Below are positions 53,925 through 64,000 of a DNA stretch of 64,000 bases, in pieces. Both the position numbers and the translations under genes were made by a program. Source of the stretch: Arachidicoccus sp. BS20 (GTDB taxonomy: Bacteria > Bacteroidota > Bacteroidia > Chitinophagales > Chitinophagaceae); the NCBI RefSeq assembly GCF_001659705.1, contig NZ_CP015971.1, positions 682,001 through 746,000 on the forward strand, written 5' to 3'. Within the stretch, counting starts at the first letter, position 1, and every line of letters starts with the position of its first letter. The notes beneath the pieces were generated by a model that worked only from the letters and a program-made list of their open reading frames with translations, was not told the origin of the DNA and searched no databases.

Positions 53925-54116
53925 GAATGATAGAACTTTTAACATTCCAGAAACAATCTTTATCCGCTTTGGATATTTTGAATATGTAATTGTCAACTGA
54001 TTTCCGGCTTTTTCAGATTTTTTTTTACGCAAGGCAACCATTCATCCTATTTAATTGTTTAATCTTTGAGTATATAATATTTTAACTGTAAAATCTCTCG
54101 GAACTTACTACTTTTA

Positions 54117-54686
54117 ATGGAACATCAATTGTCTGACATTTTGAGTGGCTGCCGGCAGGAAATACCTGCCTGGCAAAAGATTTTATATGAACGATATTAC
54201 GGGTTCGCATATTCTGTTTGTATGAGATATACTTCAAATAATGAAGATGCCATCGAGACAATGAATGACGGATTCGTAAAGATTTTTAAAGGCGTTGCAA
54301 AATTCACGGAACCGGAAGACAATACTAACTTGCCGAAGGCATTTATGGGTTGGGTTAAAACGATTATGATAAATACAAGCATTAATCATGCGAAATCTGT
54401 GGCAAGAAAAATTTCATGGACGGCAACGGATGATGCTGCACAAAATATTGCATCTCATCAGCACAGTCCTATTTCAGACATTTCTTATACAGAATTAGTA
54501 AAAATGGTACAACGTTTAAGCCCCGCTTATCGTAATACCTTTAGTTTATATGCAATAGAAGGTTTCTCTCACGAAGAAATTGCGGGAATTTTAGGTATAT
54601 CTGTTGGAACTTCAAAATCAAACTTATTAAAAGCTCGGAAGAATTTGCGAAAAATTTTGGACAAGACTTATGCCGAAAAAGTTTAA
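54117..54686 (+). CDS. ECF-type RNA polymerase sigma factor
   Basis: A 189-residue sigma-70 family protein of the extracytoplasmic-function type: region 2 (WQKILYERYYGFAYSVCMRYTSNNEDAIETMNDGFVKIFKGVAKF) and region 4 (LVKMVQRLSPAYRNTFSLYAIEGFSHEEIAGILGISVGTSKSNLLKARKNLRKIL). It redirects RNA polymerase to an envelope-related regulon. Four nt downstream is a predicted anti-sigma factor that spans both membranes. Start at ATG 54117. It is followed co-directionally by envelope protein genes that are good candidates for its regulon. Confidence 0.93.
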   Translation: MEHQLSDILSGCRQEIPAWQKILYERYYGFAYSVCMRYTSNNEDAIETMNDGFVKIFKGVAKFTEPEDNTNLPKAFMGWVKTIMINTSINHAKSVARKISWTATDDAAQNIASHQHSPISDISYTELVKMVQRLSPAYRNTFSLYAIEGFSHEEIAGILGISVGTSKSNLLKARKNLRKILDKTYAEKV

Positions 54687-54690
54687 CAAT

Positions 54691-55977
54691 ATGGACAACG
54701 AAGAGTTTGACAAACTCTTTCGACAATCTGCAGAAGATTTTACTCCGCCTTCCGCTCCCGAAGGTGCATGGGACAATTTTTATGAAAATAAATTATCGGA
54801 CAAAAAGAAAAAGAAAGGATGGCTACTGACAAATATTGAAAGGTTGTTATCGCCATTTATAGTACCTAAATTATCGTGGCAGTTTGCTACCACAGGCGTA
54901 CTCATTATCGTCGCAGGTATCTGGTTGTCAATGAATAATACAACAAATCTGCATCAAGCTGTTCAAACACAAAAAATCATTGCCGAAGGTCCAAAACAGC
55001 AACTTCAAATTGAACAAGACAACGACACAGGAGTTTTAAATGAAAATGATGACCATTCCAATATAGTTGCCGAAAATGGTATATACACAGCAAAGCGAAA
55101 TAACAAAAGTTCTTCACAAGAAATTTTCCGTCAGGTATCAATTGTTCCAAATACAAATAAAAACAGCAATATCATATATAATCTTCCCGAAAAATCCGGG
55201 CTGATTAAGATGAACACCGACATATATAATAATGTAATATCCGGCAGAAAAAATTCAATTGACAGTATTAATACAAGAAGATACGTTCTTGACAATAATC
55301 CAAATAAAACTATAAATAAACAGCCTGCACAACAACCGGATTTAAAAGGTTTTTTTGCAGTAGATGATGATGAAAACACCAAAAATCACAATGATGCGAG
55401 ATGGCAGGTAGGCGTTGTTGGCGGCTCTAATGTAAGCGTTATACACGGCAATGTTTCGGGCAATCCCGGATTGAATACCGGCGTTATGGTTCAACGCCGG
55501 ATTAATGAATCTCGTTTGTCGGTAGAAGCCGGTATTGTAAGGGAATCTATGGCTTATGATGTGGACAATGCAGATTTTCATCCAAACGGGAAAACTATTT
55601 CGTCTGAAGTCTCGAATATCAATGGGACCTGCACCATGGTTGATGTCCCTGTGAATATCCGTTACGATGTAGTTCATACAAAAAAGAGCAATGCTTTCGT
55701 AAGCACAGGTGTTTCTACGACGTGGATGGCAAATCAAAATTATACATATCAATATACAGCAGATAATGGCAACACAACACAAGTAAGCAGAGACGTGAGC
55801 GGACAAGGCAAAAACGTATATGCGGTTACTAATGTTTCAATAGGTTTTGAACAACATTTTAAGAATACTTCCGTGCAGGTAGCTCCTTACGTAAAAATTC
55901 CTTTGGGCGGCATAGGATATGGTAATATGAATTTGGGAAGTGTAGGCGCACAAATTTCTATTAAGAAAAGTTTCTAA
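54691..55977 (+). CDS. Candidate dual-membrane-spanning anti-sigma factor
   Basis: A 428-residue protein with four visible parts. Residues 1-62 are cytoplasmic and acidic/basic (MDNEEFDKLFRQSAEDFTPP, then AWDNFYENKL), as in anti-sigma binding segments. Residues about 64-80 are one hydrophobic helix (WQFATTGVLIIVAGIWLS). Residues about 85-234 are polar, rich in Asn, Gln, Lys and Ser, without hydrophobic stretches. Residues about 235-428 look like an outer-membrane beta-barrel (alternating strands such as RWQVGVVGGSNVSVI, VSIGFEQHF, VQVAPYVKIPLGG) ending in a terminal Phe. It could therefore cross both membranes as one chain. The upstream in-frame ATG at 54670 overlaps the sigma gene; 54691 fits better. 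Confidence 0.8.
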   Translation: MDNEEFDKLFRQSAEDFTPPSAPEGAWDNFYENKLSDKKKKKGWLLTNIERLLSPFIVPKLSWQFATTGVLIIVAGIWLSMNNTTNLHQAVQTQKIIAEGPKQQLQIEQDNDTGVLNENDDHSNIVAENGIYTAKRNNKSSSQEIFRQVSIVPNTNKNSNIIYNLPEKSGLIKMNTDIYNNVISGRKNSIDSINTRRYVLDNNPNKTINKQPAQQPDLKGFFAVDDDENTKNHNDARWQVGVVGGSNVSVIHGNVSGNPGLNTGVMVQRRINESRLSVEAGIVRESMAYDVDNADFHPNGKTISSEVSNINGTCTMVDVPVNIRYDVVHTKKSNAFVSTGVSTTWMANQNYTYQYTADNGNTTQVSRDVSGQGKNVYAVTNVSIGFEQHFKNTSVQVAPYVKIPLGGIGYGNMNLGSVGAQISIKKSF

Positions 55978-56037: not shown

Positions 56038-56460
56038 ATGAAACGAAAAAAAGCGATTTTTTCCGTAGTGGCAATTCTTTGCGCTATCGGGATTGCAGGC
56101 GGCATTTGGGGCTGGATGGCTTATCACAAAGCAAGACCCACGCTCGATTCCGTTAAAGCAGATGTACAAATCAATGCAGCGAAATTGTACAACGACTTTA
56201 GTACAAATGAACAAAACGCCGATAAACTTTATCTGAATAAAGTCGTGGAAGTCAGCGGTGTCGTGGCTTCCGTGCAACAGGACAGCAGTTCCGCATCGGT
56301 ACAATTAACGGCAGGCGACGGCGCCATGGGCGGCATCAACTGCGATATGCGAAGTACAGAAAACCTGCCGAAAAAAGGCGACAGCGTACACATCAAAGGC
56401 AGATGCACAGGCTATTTGATGGATGTGAGTCTTGTAGATGCAGTCAATATTTCTAAATAA
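56038..56460 (+). CDS. Membrane-anchored OB-fold (tRNA_anti-like) protein
   Basis: A 140-residue protein with an N-terminal signal anchor (MKRKKAIFSVVAILCAIGIAGGIWGWMAYH) and a single OB-fold domain of the tRNA_anti-like family: LYLNKVVEVSGVVASVQQD, VQLTAGDGAMGGINCDM and GDSVHIKGRCTGYLMDVSLVDA. Despite the family name it is extracytoplasmic, so nucleic-acid binding is unlikely. It is the first of four closely spaced genes (gaps 25, 30 and 10 nt) after the sigma/anti-sigma pair. Function unknown. Confidence 0.75.
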   Translation: MKRKKAIFSVVAILCAIGIAGGIWGWMAYHKARPTLDSVKADVQINAAKLYNDFSTNEQNADKLYLNKVVEVSGVVASVQQDSSSASVQLTAGDGAMGGINCDMRSTENLPKKGDSVHIKGRCTGYLMDVSLVDAVNISK

Positions 56461-56485: not shown

Positions 56486-56884
56486 ATGAAAAGAAAAATT
56501 CTTGCTTCCGGTAGTGTTTTCAGTTTGATTATTCTCGGAAGTGCAGTTTTAAACAGCTGTTCCAAAGCCAATGAAACTGCACTTCAACAATCAGGTGGCA
56601 TTACGTGCGATACTGTAAATATGAAGTACCAGGCAGATGTGCTTCCGATACTTACCGCCGAATGTTACAGTTGCCACAGCTCGCAAACATATTTATCGTC
56701 CGGGTCAAATCTCAATCTGGAAGATTTCGGCATTCTTAAATCAGAAGCGGATAACGGCGATTTGCTGAACGCCATCAAACATACCGGCAACGTTACGCCA
56801 ATGCCATTAAATCTTCCACAACTTTCCGACTGTGAAATCAATACAATAACAGATTGGATTAATAACGGCAGTAAAAACAATTAA
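56486..56884 (+). CDS. Mono-haem c-type cytochrome lipoprotein
   Basis: A 132-residue protein. Lipoprotein signal peptide with lipobox LNSC (Cys25), then one haem-binding CxxCH (Cys60, Cys63, His64) and a candidate distal ligand Met106 in GNVTPMPLN. Two further cysteines (41 and 116) could form a disulfide. This resembles the small planctomycete-type cytochrome domain found in many Bacteroidota lipoproteins. It should carry electrons at the periplasmic face of a membrane. Operon with an OB-fold gene before and a YceI gene after it. Confidence 0.85.
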   Translation: MKRKILASGSVFSLIILGSAVLNSCSKANETALQQSGGITCDTVNMKYQADVLPILTAECYSCHSSQTYLSSGSNLNLEDFGILKSEADNGDLLNAIKHTGNVTPMPLNLPQLSDCEINTITDWINNGSKNN

Positions 56885-56914: not shown

Positions 56915-57460
56915 ATGAAAAAAATAATCTTATGCTTACTTATCATTCCCGTAAGCTATACGCTAAAAGCACAAAAGTTTTTTACACGAAACGGAGAAGT
57001 AAGTTTTTATTCAAAAGCGCCTGCGGAAACCATTCAGGCAGAGAACAAGCAAGTACTTGCCATCATTGATGTATCTACAAAACAAGTTGCCTTTAATCTT
57101 TTGACAAAAGGATTTTTGTTTCAAAAACAATTGATGCAAGACCACTTCAACGAAGAAGTAATAGAAAGTGATAAATACCCGAAAGCAAGTTTCACGGGAA
57201 AAATTACCGATGCTGTTGATTTAACCAAAGCCGGCAAATACCACGTACACATTACGGGACAACTGACCATGCACGGCGTAGCGAAACCCGTAACAACAGA
57301 AGCCGATATTGAAGTTGCTTCGGGCGAATTAAAAGCAACCTCTTCCTTCAAGGTTGCTTATGAAGATTATAAAATCACAATGCCTTCTTTGCTGAAAAAT
57401 AATGTGGCTAAAACAATAGCCATTTCGGTAAACATCGATTGTAAACCCATGAATAAATAA
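56915..57460 (+). CDS. YceI-family protein (first copy)
   Basis: A 181-residue exported protein with a signal peptide (MKKIILCLLIIPVSYTLKAQ) and a YceI-type beta-barrel lipocalin-like domain: FFTRNGEVSFYSKAPAETIQAENKQVLAIIDVSTKQVAFNLLTKGFLFQKQLMQDHFNEEVIESDKYPKASFTGKI, then GKYHVHITGQLTMHGVAKPVTTEADIEV. YceI proteins bind isoprenoid lipids such as ubiquinone-like chains. Next to a cytochrome lipoprotein it suggests quinone or isoprenoid handling. Ten nt before the next gene. Confidence 0.88.
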   Translation: MKKIILCLLIIPVSYTLKAQKFFTRNGEVSFYSKAPAETIQAENKQVLAIIDVSTKQVAFNLLTKGFLFQKQLMQDHFNEEVIESDKYPKASFTGKITDAVDLTKAGKYHVHITGQLTMHGVAKPVTTEADIEVASGELKATSSFKVAYEDYKITMPSLLKNNVAKTIAISVNIDCKPMNK

Positions 57461-57470
57461 AATAAAAACA

Positions 57471-58388
57471 ATGATTAAGAAACTTAGCATATTCATATTA
57501 TCGGCAATTGCATTGGTGCATCATTCTTATGCGCAAGATACAACAAGCAACAACCTGATGAGCCTGTTAAACGATTCCATTTCATCTCAGGAAGCGGCGG
57601 ACAATAAAGTTACTTCTATATTTAAAGGCACACAAATAGTGGATCTTCCAACCGTGGAGCAACCCGGCAAAAGAAACCTGCAAGTATTGATTATGCACCG
57701 CTTCGGTCGCCTGAATAACGGCGCATATCAATTCTTCGGGTTGGACAACGCATCTATACGTTTAGCATTGGATTACGGACTTACAGACAGGCTTGCAGTA
57801 GGCATCGGCAGGAGTTCTCTTGATAAAGTATTTGACGCTTCGTTCAAATATAAAATAGCTTATCAGCGCAAAAAGAAAATGCCTGTTGCCATCAGCTTCT
57901 ACGGTTTGGCAACCACACAAACCTTGCGCTATACCGATAAGCCATACTTAAACTTCAAGTATCGTACCGCTTATACATCACAGTTGTTAATCGCTCGAAA
58001 ATTTACGGAAGCGTTGTCTCTGGAAGCCGCACCTGCGTGGATACATTATAATCTTGTACCTACTCCGCAAGACAAGAACAATATTTTTGTAATGAGTGTG
58101 GGCGGCAGAATGAAAATCACGAAAAGAATGAGCATCGATGCAGAATATAATTATCTGCCCAATAACTCTTTGCCGTCCGAAGGGGTACATTCTTCATTAA
58201 GCGCCGCCCTTGAAATTGAAACGGGCGGGCACGTATTCCAGTTTGTATTCAGCAATGCACAGGGAATGATAGGACCTTATTACCTCACACAATCAACAGG
58301 CACCTGGGGCAAAGGCGATATTTATTTTGGATTCAATATATCGCGCGCATTCGGCTGGAGCAAGCATGGTAAGAAGAAAAAGGGCTAA
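57471..58388 (+). CDS. DUF5777-type outer-membrane beta-barrel protein
   Basis: A 305-residue protein with a signal peptide (MIKKLSIFILSAIALVHHSYAQ) and a barrel-like sequence: ALDYGLTDRLAVGIGRSSLDKVFDASFKYKIAYQ, YTSQLLIARKFTEALSLEAAPAWIHYN, MKITKRMSIDAEYNYLPNNSL, and ALEIETGGHVFQFVFSNAQGM are typical of the DUF5777 family. Probably an outer-membrane protein of about 10-14 strands, role unknown. The fourth gene of a tight unit; a strong terminator follows 44 nt downstream. Confidence 0.83.
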   Translation: MIKKLSIFILSAIALVHHSYAQDTTSNNLMSLLNDSISSQEAADNKVTSIFKGTQIVDLPTVEQPGKRNLQVLIMHRFGRLNNGAYQFFGLDNASIRLALDYGLTDRLAVGIGRSSLDKVFDASFKYKIAYQRKKKMPVAISFYGLATTQTLRYTDKPYLNFKYRTAYTSQLLIARKFTEALSLEAAPAWIHYNLVPTPQDKNNIFVMSVGGRMKITKRMSIDAEYNYLPNNSLPSEGVHSSLSAALEIETGGHVFQFVFSNAQGMIGPYYLTQSTGTWGKGDIYFGFNISRAFGWSKHGKKKKG

Positions 58389-58466: not shown

Positions 58467-58634
58467 CATTTTTTACATCTGTAGTATCATACAGTTTTCA
58501 ATCTACCCTCATCAATAAAATATCGTAGTCTTCTTCTCTATTTTATTATAAAAAATTTTAGCCTGCGGCAACCGATTTAACAGTCTTACTGTTCATAAGA
58601 GTATAGAAAATAAAATCAATTAAAATTTTAAAAA

Positions 58635-59498
58635 ATGAAGACAAAAACAGTTTCACGATTACTTGCCGGCGTATTCATACTCGGCTTGTCAGCCTGTTCC
58701 AAAAGCAACAGCTCTACAACATCGGACAACACGGATAAAAGCAGCACGATACAGCTTTCTTCCAATGCAACCTTTGGCAATATCATTACCGATGGAAATG
58801 GTATGACATTGTATTTCTTTTCGATCGATGCAACCGGACAGTCCGGCTGTTCCGGCGATTGCACCGTGGCATGGCCTACCTATTATGCCGCAACACCTAC
58901 AATCGGAGACGGACTGAACAGTTCGGACTTTGGCACTATCACTCGTCCCGATGGCAGTAAACAAACAACTTACAAAGGATGGCCGCTCTATTATTATATG
59001 GGCGATACTAAAGCCGGCGATGTTACGGGAGATGCCGTAAATAATGTATGGTTTGTAGCAAAGCCGGATTATACGGTTATGCTTGCCAATGAACAATTGG
59101 TAGGCAATGACGGAAAAAATTATACCGGCGATTATCAGGAAGGAACAGGCGTTACGCAATATATTACAGACGCCGTAGGCAATACTTTATATTCATTTAC
59201 GCCCGACAAGTTCAATACAAATACTTTTACCAAATCTGATTTCAGCAACAATGCTGTTTGGCCTATCGACACCATCAGCACGATACAAAGCGTTCCATCT
59301 ATTTTAAAGAAAAGCGATTTTGCTGTTATACAGGTTTTCGGCAAACCGCAACTTACTTACAAAGGTTGGCCATTGTACTATTTTGGAGCAGATGGTATGA
59401 TGCGTGGCAACACCAAAGGCGTGAGTGTTCCTACGCCGGGCGTGTGGCCTATCGTTAATACAAAAACAAACACAGCTCCTCAGCCTGTTACATTTTAA
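58635..59498 (+). CDS. YxFxxD-repeat lipoprotein (Lipoprotein_15/COG4315 type)
   Basis: A 287-residue protein with a lipoprotein signal (lipobox LSAC, Cys21). The body carries repeated aromatic motifs of the Yx(F/W)xxD kind: LYFFSID (Tyr60), PLYYYMGD (about 118-124), LYSFTPD (Tyr186) and PLYYFGAD (about 247-253). It also has a cysteine pair GCSGDC (Cys72, Cys76) followed by TVAWP. The fold is a secreted repeat of unknown role. It has its own terminator downstream and lies between two envelope units. Confidence 0.85.
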   Translation: MKTKTVSRLLAGVFILGLSACSKSNSSTTSDNTDKSSTIQLSSNATFGNIITDGNGMTLYFFSIDATGQSGCSGDCTVAWPTYYAATPTIGDGLNSSDFGTITRPDGSKQTTYKGWPLYYYMGDTKAGDVTGDAVNNVWFVAKPDYTVMLANEQLVGNDGKNYTGDYQEGTGVTQYITDAVGNTLYSFTPDKFNTNTFTKSDFSNNAVWPIDTISTIQSVPSILKKSDFAVIQVFGKPQLTYKGWPLYYFGADGMMRGNTKGVSVPTPGVWPIVNTKTNTAPQPVTF

Positions 59499-59558: not shown

Positions 59559-60152
59559 ATGAAAACAATAGTGTTTAACCTTTGCATAGCGCTACTTATT
59601 TTTTCAAACAAAGTGGATGCGCAAAACAAAAACTTATACTCCATTGGCAACGATTATACAATAACCATCAACGGAACATCCAACCTGCACGACTGGCACG
59701 AAACAGTCGATAAAGCTTTAGGGCGAGGTATTATTACACAAAACACCGACGGCAGCTTCAACATCGATTCTTTATATATTCGCATGGATGTTCACTCCAT
59801 CAACAGTCCCGAAGGAAAGACAATGGTCAATAAAACCCGGGACGCCTTAAAAGCAAATCAATATCCGTTTATTACTTTTTCCATTGCATCTCCTTTAAAA
59901 ATAACTACGGCAAATAAAGACGGAGTTACGGTAAACACGCCGGGCGAATTAACCATTGCAGGCGTAACCAAACACATCATTATTCAAGGGAAAATATATG
60001 CAGGCGATGCGCATAAATTTATTTTTGAAGGCACACTTCCTGTAATGTTGAACGACTATAACATTACGCCGCCGACTGCCATGCTGGGACTGCTGAAAGT
60101 GAAAAATGCTATTACCGTTCATTATCGCACATCCTTTGAAATGAAAAGCTGA
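59559..60152 (+). CDS. YceI-family protein (second copy)
   Basis: A 197-residue exported protein; signal peptide MKTIVFNLCIALLIFSNKVDAQ, then a YceI-like barrel: YTITINGTSNLHDWHETVDKALG, YIRMDVHSINSPEGKTMVNKTRDALKANQYPFITFSIASPLKI, TPGELTIAGVTKHIIIQGKIYAGD and YNITPPTAMLGLLKVKNAITVHYRTSF. Sequence-wise it is distinct from the first copy (56915-57460), so it is not a recent duplication. It is monocistronic between a terminator and a 104-nt gap; the gap shows nothing definite. Confidence 0.85.
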   Translation: MKTIVFNLCIALLIFSNKVDAQNKNLYSIGNDYTITINGTSNLHDWHETVDKALGRGIITQNTDGSFNIDSLYIRMDVHSINSPEGKTMVNKTRDALKANQYPFITFSIASPLKITTANKDGVTVNTPGELTIAGVTKHIIIQGKIYAGDAHKFIFEGTLPVMLNDYNITPPTAMLGLLKVKNAITVHYRTSFEMKS

Positions 60153-60256
60153 TACAAATAAAACAGCATAAAATTTTCATTTGCAGCAACCAATCTTCTT
60201 CATTCGTTGTTTATAAATGTGTAGATAATAAAGTTCCTCCGCTTAAAACATTTATA

Positions 60257-61180
60257 ATGAACATTTCTCAGGCATCTGTTTACGATTATCCTTTTTACGG
60301 TTCTAAAAACAATGCACCAAAGCCTTCCGAAATACTTGAATTACTCAGATATTTCGGCGTTTTCAAGCATCCTTTAAGAGCCGATGAATTGTACAAATTT
60401 TCCGCCGCCGGCGCCAGCGTTCTGTCTGAAAAAACTGTGTTGGAAAAAATGAAAGCGACCGGCGAGGTTAAACAATACGGCGAATATTACTTGTTAAATA
60501 ATGCGCCTGAAATGTGTGTGGAAAAACGCATCAACGGCGAAAAGCTTGCCGGCAAATTATTACCGAAAGCCAAAAGAACAGGGCGTTTCATTGGAATGTT
60601 TCCGTTTGTAAAATTTGTAGGCATTTCGGGTTCGCTGTCAAAAAATTATGCCGATGAAAATACCGATTTCGATTTCTTCATTATCACAGCCAACAACACG
60701 CTTTGGATATGCAGAAGCATTTTGCATATTGTAAAAAAATTAAGCTTCATCATCGGGAAGCAGCATTCACTTTGCATGAATTATTTTATAGATGAACATC
60801 ATTTGAAAATAGAAGAAAAAAACATTTTCACACGCATTGAATTAAGCACGCTGATTCCGGTTTACAATAAAGATTTGTACAGAACTTTTTTGCTGCGCAA
60901 TCAAAACAATCTTCCCAACATCCGGCATCTCGGCGTTGATTTTGAAGGTGCGGTTCAGTACAATTTGACGAAGTGGAACAGGCAAAACCTGGTTTGGAAA
61001 CCGCTCAATATTTTCCTGATGAAATTTACCGATGCAAGATGGAAACGAAAATGGAAAAAGCGCGGATACGCCATGCAGGACTATGATTTGGCATTCAAGA
61101 CAACGCCTTACGTGTCAAAAAATCATCCCAAAAATTATCAGAAAAAAATTCTCGAACAGTTAGAAAACCAAGCACATTGA
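60257..61180 (+). CDS. Nucleotidyltransferase-domain protein
   Basis: A 307-residue protein with a nucleotidyltransferase core: FVGISGSLSKNYADENTDFDFFIITANN, i.e. GS followed by DxD (metal aspartates at about 137 and 139). Upstream is a winged-helix-like segment (LRYFGVFKHPLRADELYKFSAAGASVLSEKTVLEKM), downstream a helical domain. It could transfer NMP to a protein, sugar or small molecule. It overlaps the radical SAM gene by four nt, so they are translationally coupled. Similar genes occur at the start of Bacteroidota exopolysaccharide clusters. Substrate unknown. Confidence 0.82.
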   Translation: MNISQASVYDYPFYGSKNNAPKPSEILELLRYFGVFKHPLRADELYKFSAAGASVLSEKTVLEKMKATGEVKQYGEYYLLNNAPEMCVEKRINGEKLAGKLLPKAKRTGRFIGMFPFVKFVGISGSLSKNYADENTDFDFFIITANNTLWICRSILHIVKKLSFIIGKQHSLCMNYFIDEHHLKIEEKNIFTRIELSTLIPVYNKDLYRTFLLRNQNNLPNIRHLGVDFEGAVQYNLTKWNRQNLVWKPLNIFLMKFTDARWKRKWKKRGYAMQDYDLAFKTTPYVSKNHPKNYQKKILEQLENQAH

Positions 61181-63473: not shown

Positions 63474-64000
63474 ATGATGCAGCAAACAAAAAATACACAA
63501 GATGAAGTAACGGTACATGAATTTTTATCTCAGGTAAAAGAAATCCTTCTTTTCCTGAAACGACTGTGTACACTATATTTCAGAGAATTGGGAAAACGAA
63601 AAGCTATTCATGTTTTTCTGTTATTATGCGCTATTGCCGGCGCGTTGTCTTTTATTTTTCATCCAATAAAAAAATACGAAGCAACCGCTTCATATAAGTA
63701 CGACAGCCCTGCGGGAAAGTTATATGGCGAAATGCTTGATAAAGTAAACGGGCTTATTCAAACACATTCTTACACGCAGCTTCATCAATACATTCACTTG
63801 CCATTGCAACAACTCGAAAGCATTCAAAAAATTGAAGCGAAAAACATTTACGGAAGTCCGTTGTCTGACGATATGACCAACAGCAAAGACAAAATATTTT
63901 ACATATCGGTTACAAGTTCAAACGCCACAGTATTTGATAGTTTAGGAACTGTATTGGAAAATTATCTGAATAACAATATATCTGTTCGTGAGACATTGCA
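63474..64000 (+). CDS. Wzz-like chain-length determinant (runs off the right edge)
   Basis: An open frame without stop to the window end (at least 175 codons). N-terminal part MMQQTKNTQDEVTVHEFLSQ, then a transmembrane segment (about residues 48-65, AIHVFLLLCAIAGALSFIFH) and a periplasmic region with helices (EMLDKVNGLIQTHSYTQLHQYIHL). The order of one membrane helix near the N-terminus followed by a periplasmic domain fits polysaccharide co-polymerase/Wzz proteins, but only the first part is visible. Starts 16 nt after the methyltransferase gene, ATG at 63474 or 63477. Confidence 0.7.
   Translation, partial: MMQQTKNTQDEVTVHEFLSQVKEILLFLKRLCTLYFRELGKRKAIHVFLLLCAIAGALSFIFHPIKKYEATASYKYDSPAGKLYGEMLDKVNGLIQTHSYTQLHQYIHLPLQQLESIQKIEAKNIYGSPLSDDMTNSKDKIFYISVTSSNATVFDSLGTVLENYLNNNISVRETL

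Follow-up and report, generated by a model that had tools for sequence, protein, structure and literature searches.

A probable Dma-type anti-sigma factor predicted to link the cytoplasm to an outer-membrane barrel in Arachidicoccus sp. BS20

The vesicle-control link of the dual-membrane-spanning anti-sigma (Dma) class stems from Bacteroides. The published domain order of this class consists of an anti-sigma part, a transmembrane helix, a long disordered tether and a C-terminal barrel (PMC13088901). Passages of the same paper describe domains with a span from outer membrane to cytosol, and report that genes near dma2 were among the most raised upon deletion of dma2 (PMC13088901). According to passages of the two papers on the related protein Reo, it contains an inner-membrane helix and a C-terminal outer-membrane barrel, is a proposed outer-membrane stress sensor, and its loss frees the sigma factor EcfO in Phocaeicola vulgatus (PMC9308784, PMC13114119); Reo is said to span all five compartments, and EcfO-Reo, which was first found as induced under prolonged oxygen exposure, is induced in P. 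vulgatus by BcpT and Bd-A (PMC13114119). We take Bd-A to be bacteroidetocin A, which inhibits BamA (PMC9308784). Here we describe a similar pair in Arachidicoccus sp. BS20, located in a stretch of 64,000 nucleotides (NZ_CP015971.1, positions 682,001 to 746,000 of the forward strand; this whole stretch is called the window, and positions refer to it), in which a gene for an extracytoplasmic function (ECF) sigma factor is followed by a gene for a barrel protein of 428 residues.

On balance, we favour the reading that this is a Dma/Reo-type pair, in which a one-chain anti-sigma factor extends from the cytoplasm to an outer-membrane barrel and the released sigma factor drives an envelope-gene regulon. 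Two short cytoplasmic helices would bind the ECF sigma factor from a position between regions 4 and 2; an inner-membrane helix would be followed by a disordered tether of ~155 residues across the periplasm and by the barrel in the outer membrane. With the barrel properly assembled, the sigma factor would be kept off RNA polymerase. If barrel assembly or the state of the outer membrane is disturbed, the sigma factor would be released, most likely via cutting or loss of the chain, and would then start transcription at two operons, its own (from 54033) and another (from 58567), which together carry the YceI, cytochrome c, DUF5777 and Lipoprotein_15 genes. We infer sigma binding, the direction of control, the signal, the release step and the function of the regulon; the architecture, the pairing, the promoter motif with its recurrence and the coevolution were computed or counted. 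The gene pair and the parts of the barrel protein are:

54117..54686, + strand: ECF sigma factor, 189 amino acids (aa) (Pfam Sigma70_r2 and r4_2; TIGR02937)
54691..55977, + strand: anti-sigma/barrel protein, 428 residues (AlphaFold2, Foldseek, Pfam, family comparison)
54691..54876, + strand: predicted cytoplasmic sigma-binding part, residues 1-62, helices 3-15 and 26-36 (AlphaFold2, family N-terminal model, coevolution)
54877..54936, + strand: inner-membrane helix, residues 63-82 (AlphaFold2, hydropathy)
54937..55401, + strand: disordered periplasmic tether, residues 83-237, ~155 residues (predicted local distance difference test, pLDDT, with blocks of 43-55 over most of it)
55402..55971, + strand: eight-stranded outer-membrane barrel, residues 238-427 (AlphaFold2, Foldseek)

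The sigma protein (54117-54686) was matched by both Pfam regions 2 and 4, and its gene adjoins that of the barrel protein, which is the adjacency that marks the Dma class. The coordinates, the reading frames and the 4-nt gap reported in an earlier note on this DNA were confirmed upon rechecking. An in-frame ATG further upstream, at 54670, would yield a protein of 435 aa that overlaps the sigma gene by 17 nt, and this start is as likely as the one at 54691. One relative (L002) has a -17 start at the identical position, and the most upstream possible start, GTG and TTG included, overlaps the sigma gene in 166 of the 187 unique pairs. A FecR-type anti-sigma identity was considered and rejected, since no FecR domain was matched in the pair by Pfam and NCBIfam at E values up to 1.

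In the AlphaFold2 model of the barrel protein, built on 74 aligned sequences, three helices (residues 3-15, 26-36 and 63-82) plus a short one (49-52) are followed by a low-confidence part without structure (residues ~85-236) and by eight strands at 238-427 with a pLDDT of about 95. When the barrel was compared with the PDB by Foldseek, the best solved match was OmpA (9fzc, E 5.6e-8), and NspA (1p4t) reached a template modelling score (TM-score) by target of 0.72; both are eight-stranded barrels of the outer membrane. PF13568 matches residues 236-367 at 26 bits, just below its 27-bit cut-off. A lysine-rich stretch precedes the inner-membrane helix on the inner side, and the chain closes in KKSF. 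Thus, the anatomy drawn from the letters alone, with a single inner-membrane helix, a long linker, a barrel in residues 235-428 and a C-terminal Phe, was right, as the AlphaFold2 and Foldseek results agree on it. The same layout is kept in the family: the N-terminal model fits 177 of 187 members, and the tether has a median length of 182 residues (5-95% range 128-253; 187 fused pairs).

In a sample of 195 genomes of the family, this one included, 98 contained a homolog of the barrel protein (E 1e-3); since 97 of the 194 others have one, a feature unique to Arachidicoccus sp. BS20 was rejected. A profile search of the phylum at E 1e-8 found the protein in at least 113 of 395 genomes and in 58 of 171 genera, the former being a lower bound because at most four candidates per genome were scored. 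Among 109 barrel-seeded loci, taken from 120 matches outside the window (the rest were weak, at contig ends or second pieces), the barrel open reading frame (ORF) adjoins a sigma gene in 108. This bears out the proposed pairing with an ECF sigma factor, and a chance association was therefore rejected. The lone exception is L024, whose barrel ORF has no sigma neighbour; this barrel anti-sigma-like gene (L024:928-2103) lies just after the apparent end of a copper-ATPase gene, as read from the sequence.

When the search started from the sigma factor, using the best 80 of at least 591 matches to the sigma alignment, the downstream ORF fitted the barrel model in 60 of 80 loci, and four more (L110, L125, L134, L140) showed a Pfam barrel match below the cut-off. 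A PorP/SprF barrel was found downstream by Pfam in L104, and PKD-type proteins in seven loci (L092, L111, L120, L128, L130, L131, L136), recognized by domain matches in some and by eye in the rest. Short barrel-less anti-sigmas were read by us at L123, L129 and L135; L137 and L139 were left unclassified, and L081, L124 and L133 were unresolved or truncated. At L133, a short remnant like the anti-sigma N-terminus (L133:8568-8780) lies behind the sigma gene, and the ORF taken downstream is unrelated. A Pfam scan at E 0.01 of 74 proteins (that of the window and 73 sigma-seeded ones) gave OMP_b-brl_2 in 50, OMP_b-brl in 25, PKD_4 in 6 and CHU_C in 5, where families may overlap on one protein. Within these best 80 sigma relatives, 79 bear Bacteroidota names, with no Bacteroides-named record among them; the remaining one, L111, is a metagenome-assembled genome labelled Kuenenia that may be misassigned. 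The genome of Arachidicoccus sp. BS20 itself holds four or more systems that broadly belong to this type, with 30 of 36 region-4 matches examined.

Contact between the cytoplasmic part and the sigma factor was studied by coevolution in 185 pairs, two of the 187 rows having been dropped for unread letters. Pairwise distances of the cytoplasmic part and of the sigma factor correlated with r 0.70, compared with a mean of 0.61 and a highest value of 0.66 for 100 entropy-matched sets of barrel columns; against the whole barrel, which has more columns, this advantage was gone (r 0.71). In mean-field direct coupling, R174-D7 was the top coupling between sigma and anti-sigma (z 7.3), followed, in columns ungapped in the window protein, by L127-F10 (6.3), S135-A26 (5.8), S113-S21 (5.6) and P136-S13 (5.3), and at lower values by Y28-F30 (z 4.7) and K21-D28 (z 4.6). 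The controls, which comprised barrel columns and shuffles only and did not model the tree, had maxima of 4.7-6.4 in 12 entropy-matched barrel sets, 6.5 in the whole barrel and at most 5.6 in 20 shuffled pairings. Because shared ancestry inflates such values, the couplings are counted as moderate support for the contact; in them helix 1 points mainly to sigma region 4, and helix 2 has links to region 2 plus, via S135-A26, to region 4. Class I anti-sigma factors sit between sigma regions 4 and 2, and the coupling pattern resembles that arrangement.

The promoter motif and the genes behind the pair are:

54033..54062, + strand: GGCAACC-N17-GTTTAA upstream of the sigma gene, a predicted sigma-dependent promoter that points to autoregulation (family motif counts)
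56038..56460, + strand: tRNA_anti-like (OB-fold) membrane protein, probable regulon (PF12869; counterparts close to the pairs of L251, by eye, and L252, by Pfam)
56486..56884, + strand: probable c-type cytochrome lipoprotein (CxxCH), probable regulon (sequence; weak Haem_bd match below cut-off; counterparts by eye)
56915..57460, + strand: YceI-like protein, probable regulon (PF04264; counterparts by eye)
57471..58388, + strand: DUF5777 outer-membrane barrel, probable regulon (PF19089, 4.7e-91; counterparts by eye)
58567..58596, + strand: second motif copy, GGCAACC-N17-GTTCAT (motif search)
58635..59498, + strand: Lipoprotein_15 (secreted repeat) protein, probable regulon (PF03640; counterpart directly behind DUF5777 in L251 and L252)
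59559..60152, + strand: second YceI-like protein, possibly co-transcribed (PF04264)
60185..60214, + strand: tentative third site, promoter-like AGCAACC-N17-GTTTAT, with its end 42 nt upstream of the ORF at 60257 (motif search)

Around the starts of the family sigma genes, GCAACC was present in 132 of 171 cases, compared with 6 in shuffled sequence, and either GCAACC or GGCAAC was found in 145 of 171 when a slightly longer stretch was considered. A weaker (C)G(T/A) block follows ~17 bases past this element. With up to two mismatches, the promoter seed has 56 forward matches genome-wide, and two of them (58567 and 60185) fall within the 6.2 kb past 54033, where 0.10 would be expected (P 0.005, a somewhat flattering value, as the interval ended at the last site); one reverse match also lies inside the same 6.2 kb. 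Behind the pairs of L251 and L252, counterparts of the first five regulon genes were found, with the first two swapped in L252; these counterparts were named by eye, except for two genes of L252 that were scanned with Pfam. Given the motif at family sigma genes, its downstream recurrence and the kept gene set, we propose that the sigma factor drives its own operon and the Lipoprotein_15 gene. The regulon would probably consist of the YceI, cytochrome c, DUF5777 and Lipoprotein_15 genes, and the site at 60185 is tentatively considered a promoter. The gene run from 60257 contains radical-SAM-like and methyltransferase-like ORFs, the last ORF, at 63474, being chain-length-determinant-like (by eye).

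The presence of DUF5777 in this conserved gene set also speaks for another way of sensing, in which, as in TonB-dependent cell-surface signalling, a second outer-membrane protein such as the DUF5777 barrel contacts the barrel or the tether and sets its state. We regard such partner dependence as very improbable, as FecR, STN and TonB receptor features were all missing from the pair in Pfam and NCBIfam.

Several results weigh against the favoured reading of a one-chain anti-sigma factor that frees its sigma factor to drive envelope genes. The earlier note had assigned the holding of the sigma factor to residues 1-62; coevolution favours this contact, but when sigma and cytoplasmic part were joined into one artificial chain for AlphaFold2, with an alignment that used in-frame read-through bridging rows, the predicted template modelling score (pTM) was 0.54 and no usable interface was obtained. 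Within the top 20 couplings, 18 reached z>=4 in the real pair and 7 to 18 in the barrel sets, one of the 12 sets equalling the real pair. The ancestry effect applies to all couplings, with sigma-barrel values reaching 6.4-6.5, and S135-A26 (z 5.8) ties helix 2 to region 4, so that there is no clean helix-by-region split. The loose promoter pattern shows no genome-wide excess, with 105 matches compared with 143 for the reversed control. The stricter form RGCAACC-N17-GTTYAW, whose degenerate letters were fitted to the three sites, has 4 matches in 3.49 Mb versus 3 for the control; three of the 4 fall here, where the window expectation is 0.04. The motif was not seen before the Lipoprotein_15 genes of L251 and L252, where it would not be needed if the genes there make up one operon. 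Finally, were each of them a reporter of assembly only, the four or more systems in this genome would all fire together; this speaks for a signal of greater specificity.

The induction of the P. vulgatus pair by BcpT and Bd-A favours, by analogy, sensing of assembly or integrity by the barrel. A disordered tether passes no rigid conformational signal; cutting or loss of the chain is therefore the favoured release step, and proteolysis is a live route. The genome has one gene for an M50 (site-2 type) protease, which says little on release because all 14 control genomes have an M50 gene as well; release of the sigma factor by proteolysis is thus possible, not indicated. Control of the sigma factor by barrel folding and without a protease relay, as put forward in the earlier note, is likewise a hypothesis.

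A more specific signal could be read at a conserved residue pair of the barrel:

55630..55632, + strand: codon of Cys314, the sole cysteine of the protein (conserved as Cys in 159 of 185 family barrels)
55726..55728, + strand: codon of Met346, coupled to Cys314 (second of 17,399 barrel couplings)

Exactly one cysteine was found in 162 of the 185 family barrels, and Met occupies position 346 in 155 of them. Both residues occur together in 152 barrels and neither in 23, with Cys alone in 7 and Met alone in 3 (Fisher P 4e-20, no correction for ancestry). Cys314 and Met346 probably touch, because theirs is the second strongest of the 17,399 couplings inside the barrel and the strand 4-5 couplings 319-345, 317-347 and 307-353 share one register with it. 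Judged by how hydrophobic and polar residues alternate, both would face the lumen; their distance from the periplasmic turn would put them near the outer rim. Accordingly placed, the pair might make the barrel a specific sensor instead of an assembly reporter: an oxidant, thiol-reactive compound or soft metal outside the cell would react with or bind to Cys314-Met346, and the altered barrel would cause the chain to release the sigma factor. The conservation and coupling of the two residues favour this, as do the lack of a cysteine in the mature part of all six other PF13568 barrels examined in the same genome, the cytochrome and YceI proteins within the probable regulon and the response of EcfO-Reo to prolonged oxygen exposure (PMC13114119). 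However, a conserved Cys-Met contact may be structural, and the cysteine is missing from 26 of the 185 barrels and from the fused paralog L051 of the same genome. In an independent-pairs test on the sigma tree ~4 of 6 pairs were concordant (median p 0.125, not significant), and most of the separate proteins of the two-piece systems described below have no cysteine past their first 20 residues. Such a sensor therefore appears rather doubtful to us. A role of copper was also considered, because L024 adjoins the apparent copper-ATPase end mentioned above and L251 has heavy-metal-type proteins beyond the operon by our own reading; these are two anecdotes.

Two-piece relatives bear on the role of the tether. 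In the same genome, L254 and L255 each encode a sigma factor and a barrel-less anti-sigma with membrane helix and tether (257 and 232 residues, respectively), and 10-11 nt past the anti-sigma a separate gene for a product with a signal-like N-terminus, which would be secreted and probably located in the outer membrane; the product of L254 matches PF13568. These two anti-sigmas were placed by gene order, membrane helix and length, as the N-terminal model misses them even at E 10. A sigma factor with a short anti-sigma was found at 20 further loci of the phylum, 19 of which have a candidate third gene at most 132 nt away; these 20, out of 22 two-piece loci in all, had been selected for an open frame of about 240-265 aa. 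Among the matches listed by the phylum search, 56 were judged to be N-terminal-only, and 27 of these fall within 240-270. Seven of 21 third proteins match PF13568 and one PF13505 (the two may overlap), the rest having no Pfam barrel match, and 17 of the 21 have no cysteine past the first 20 residues. The tethers of the 22 two-piece anti-sigmas comprise 167-198 residues, a narrow range that is partly selection because the loci were chosen by length; their median of 178 is close to that of the fused pairs (182). This similar reach suggests that the tether serves to span the periplasm. A worm-like-chain estimate that assumes values for the persistence length and the width of the periplasm gives ~7-15 pN on a 155-residue tether over 20-30 nm.

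Two-piece relatives show that the class can do without a covalent link. They also lend something to the idea that living cells contain no bridge at all, the chain being cut after the inner-membrane helix during biogenesis, so that the barrel is free and the membrane remnant alone acts as anti-sigma. This we hold to be highly unlikely: the tether is long in nearly all of the 187 fused pairs and of similar median length in the two-piece set, itself chosen by length, as if reach mattered, and the Dma paper, in the passages cited above, has domains that reach the cytosol from the outer membrane (PMC13088901).

Other outer ends were also found. A type IX type B sorting domain with PKD scored above the NCBIfam cut-off in L092 and below it in L130, L131 and L136, and L131 and L136 also passed the Pfam cut-off for CHU_C. 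An anti-sigma-like protein with TonB plug, VWA domain and type A sorting tail (L263:2891-5203) lies beside the same kind of sigma gene. In L104, L110, L112 and L134, the N-terminal sigma-binding motif was seen by eye in tandem, in four to about eight copies. Judged by the type IX and PorP variants, the class may extend beyond the barrel proteins known from Bacteroides. The data would also fit a wiring principle shared across the phylum, in which a short sigma-binding module, an inner-membrane helix and a tether long enough for the periplasm are combined with exchangeable outer ends (a barrel on the same chain, a separate barrel gene, type IX sorting domains with PKD/CHU_C or a Plug-VWA-sorting tail, PorP/SprF), and with the lumen-facing surface Cys-Met pair of the barrel form as chemical sensor; taken as a whole, this is unlikely, slightly more so than the sensor by itself. 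If true, a chemical event beyond the outer membrane, either an oxidation or the binding of a metal, would reach the sigma factor in the cytoplasm with no need for a diffusing messenger.

The pair offers a compact system for asking how one chain through both membranes signals to a sigma factor. Its handles are the predicted own promoter as read-out, a probable target set, Cys314 and Met346 to change, and predicted sigma contact residues; in addition, the two-piece systems that occur naturally in this genome allow the effect of reach to be told apart from that of a covalent link.

Compared with other routes from the outer membrane to an ECF sigma factor, the predicted single chain is the main difference. 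In the RseA-DegS-RseP system of Escherichia coli sigma E, the state of outer-membrane proteins frees the ECF sigma factor through a protease relay, and the unassembled barrel and the anti-sigma are separate proteins, whereas here they form one chain. Cell-surface signalling by FecR/FpvR likewise starts at a barrel in the outer membrane and ends at an ECF sigma factor, but through two proteins with a TonB-dependent transducer; the pair described here has no recognizable FecR domain and a single chain. Closest are Dma1/Das1 and Dma2/Das2 of Bacteroides thetaiotaomicron, which have the same domain order and an adjacent ECF sigma gene; unlike at Dma1/Dma2, the neighbours here are YceI, cytochrome, DUF5777 and Lipoprotein_15 genes. 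The likeness to the Dma class proposed earlier thus holds for the domain order, and the protein is probably a Dma-type member, a likeness judged by the published description. With EcfO-Reo of Phocaeicola vulgatus and Bacteroides fragilis the pair shares an ECF sigma factor and, behind it, an anti-sigma that combines an inner-membrane helix with a C-terminal barrel. In the passages on EcfO-Reo no promoter motif is mentioned, and its regulon, described there with NigD proteins and the making of longer O-antigen, differs from the probable regulon of the window. Passages of the open-licence Dma/Reo literature do not mention a Cys-Met pair, two-piece or type IX forms, which is no claim of their absence from print. 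The class as such is known from Bacteroides and Phocaeicola (Dma/Reo), and the window protein is probably a new member of it; added here are the coevolution with the sigma factor, the predicted promoter with its probable regulon, the Cys314-Met346 pair and the 22 two-piece loci.

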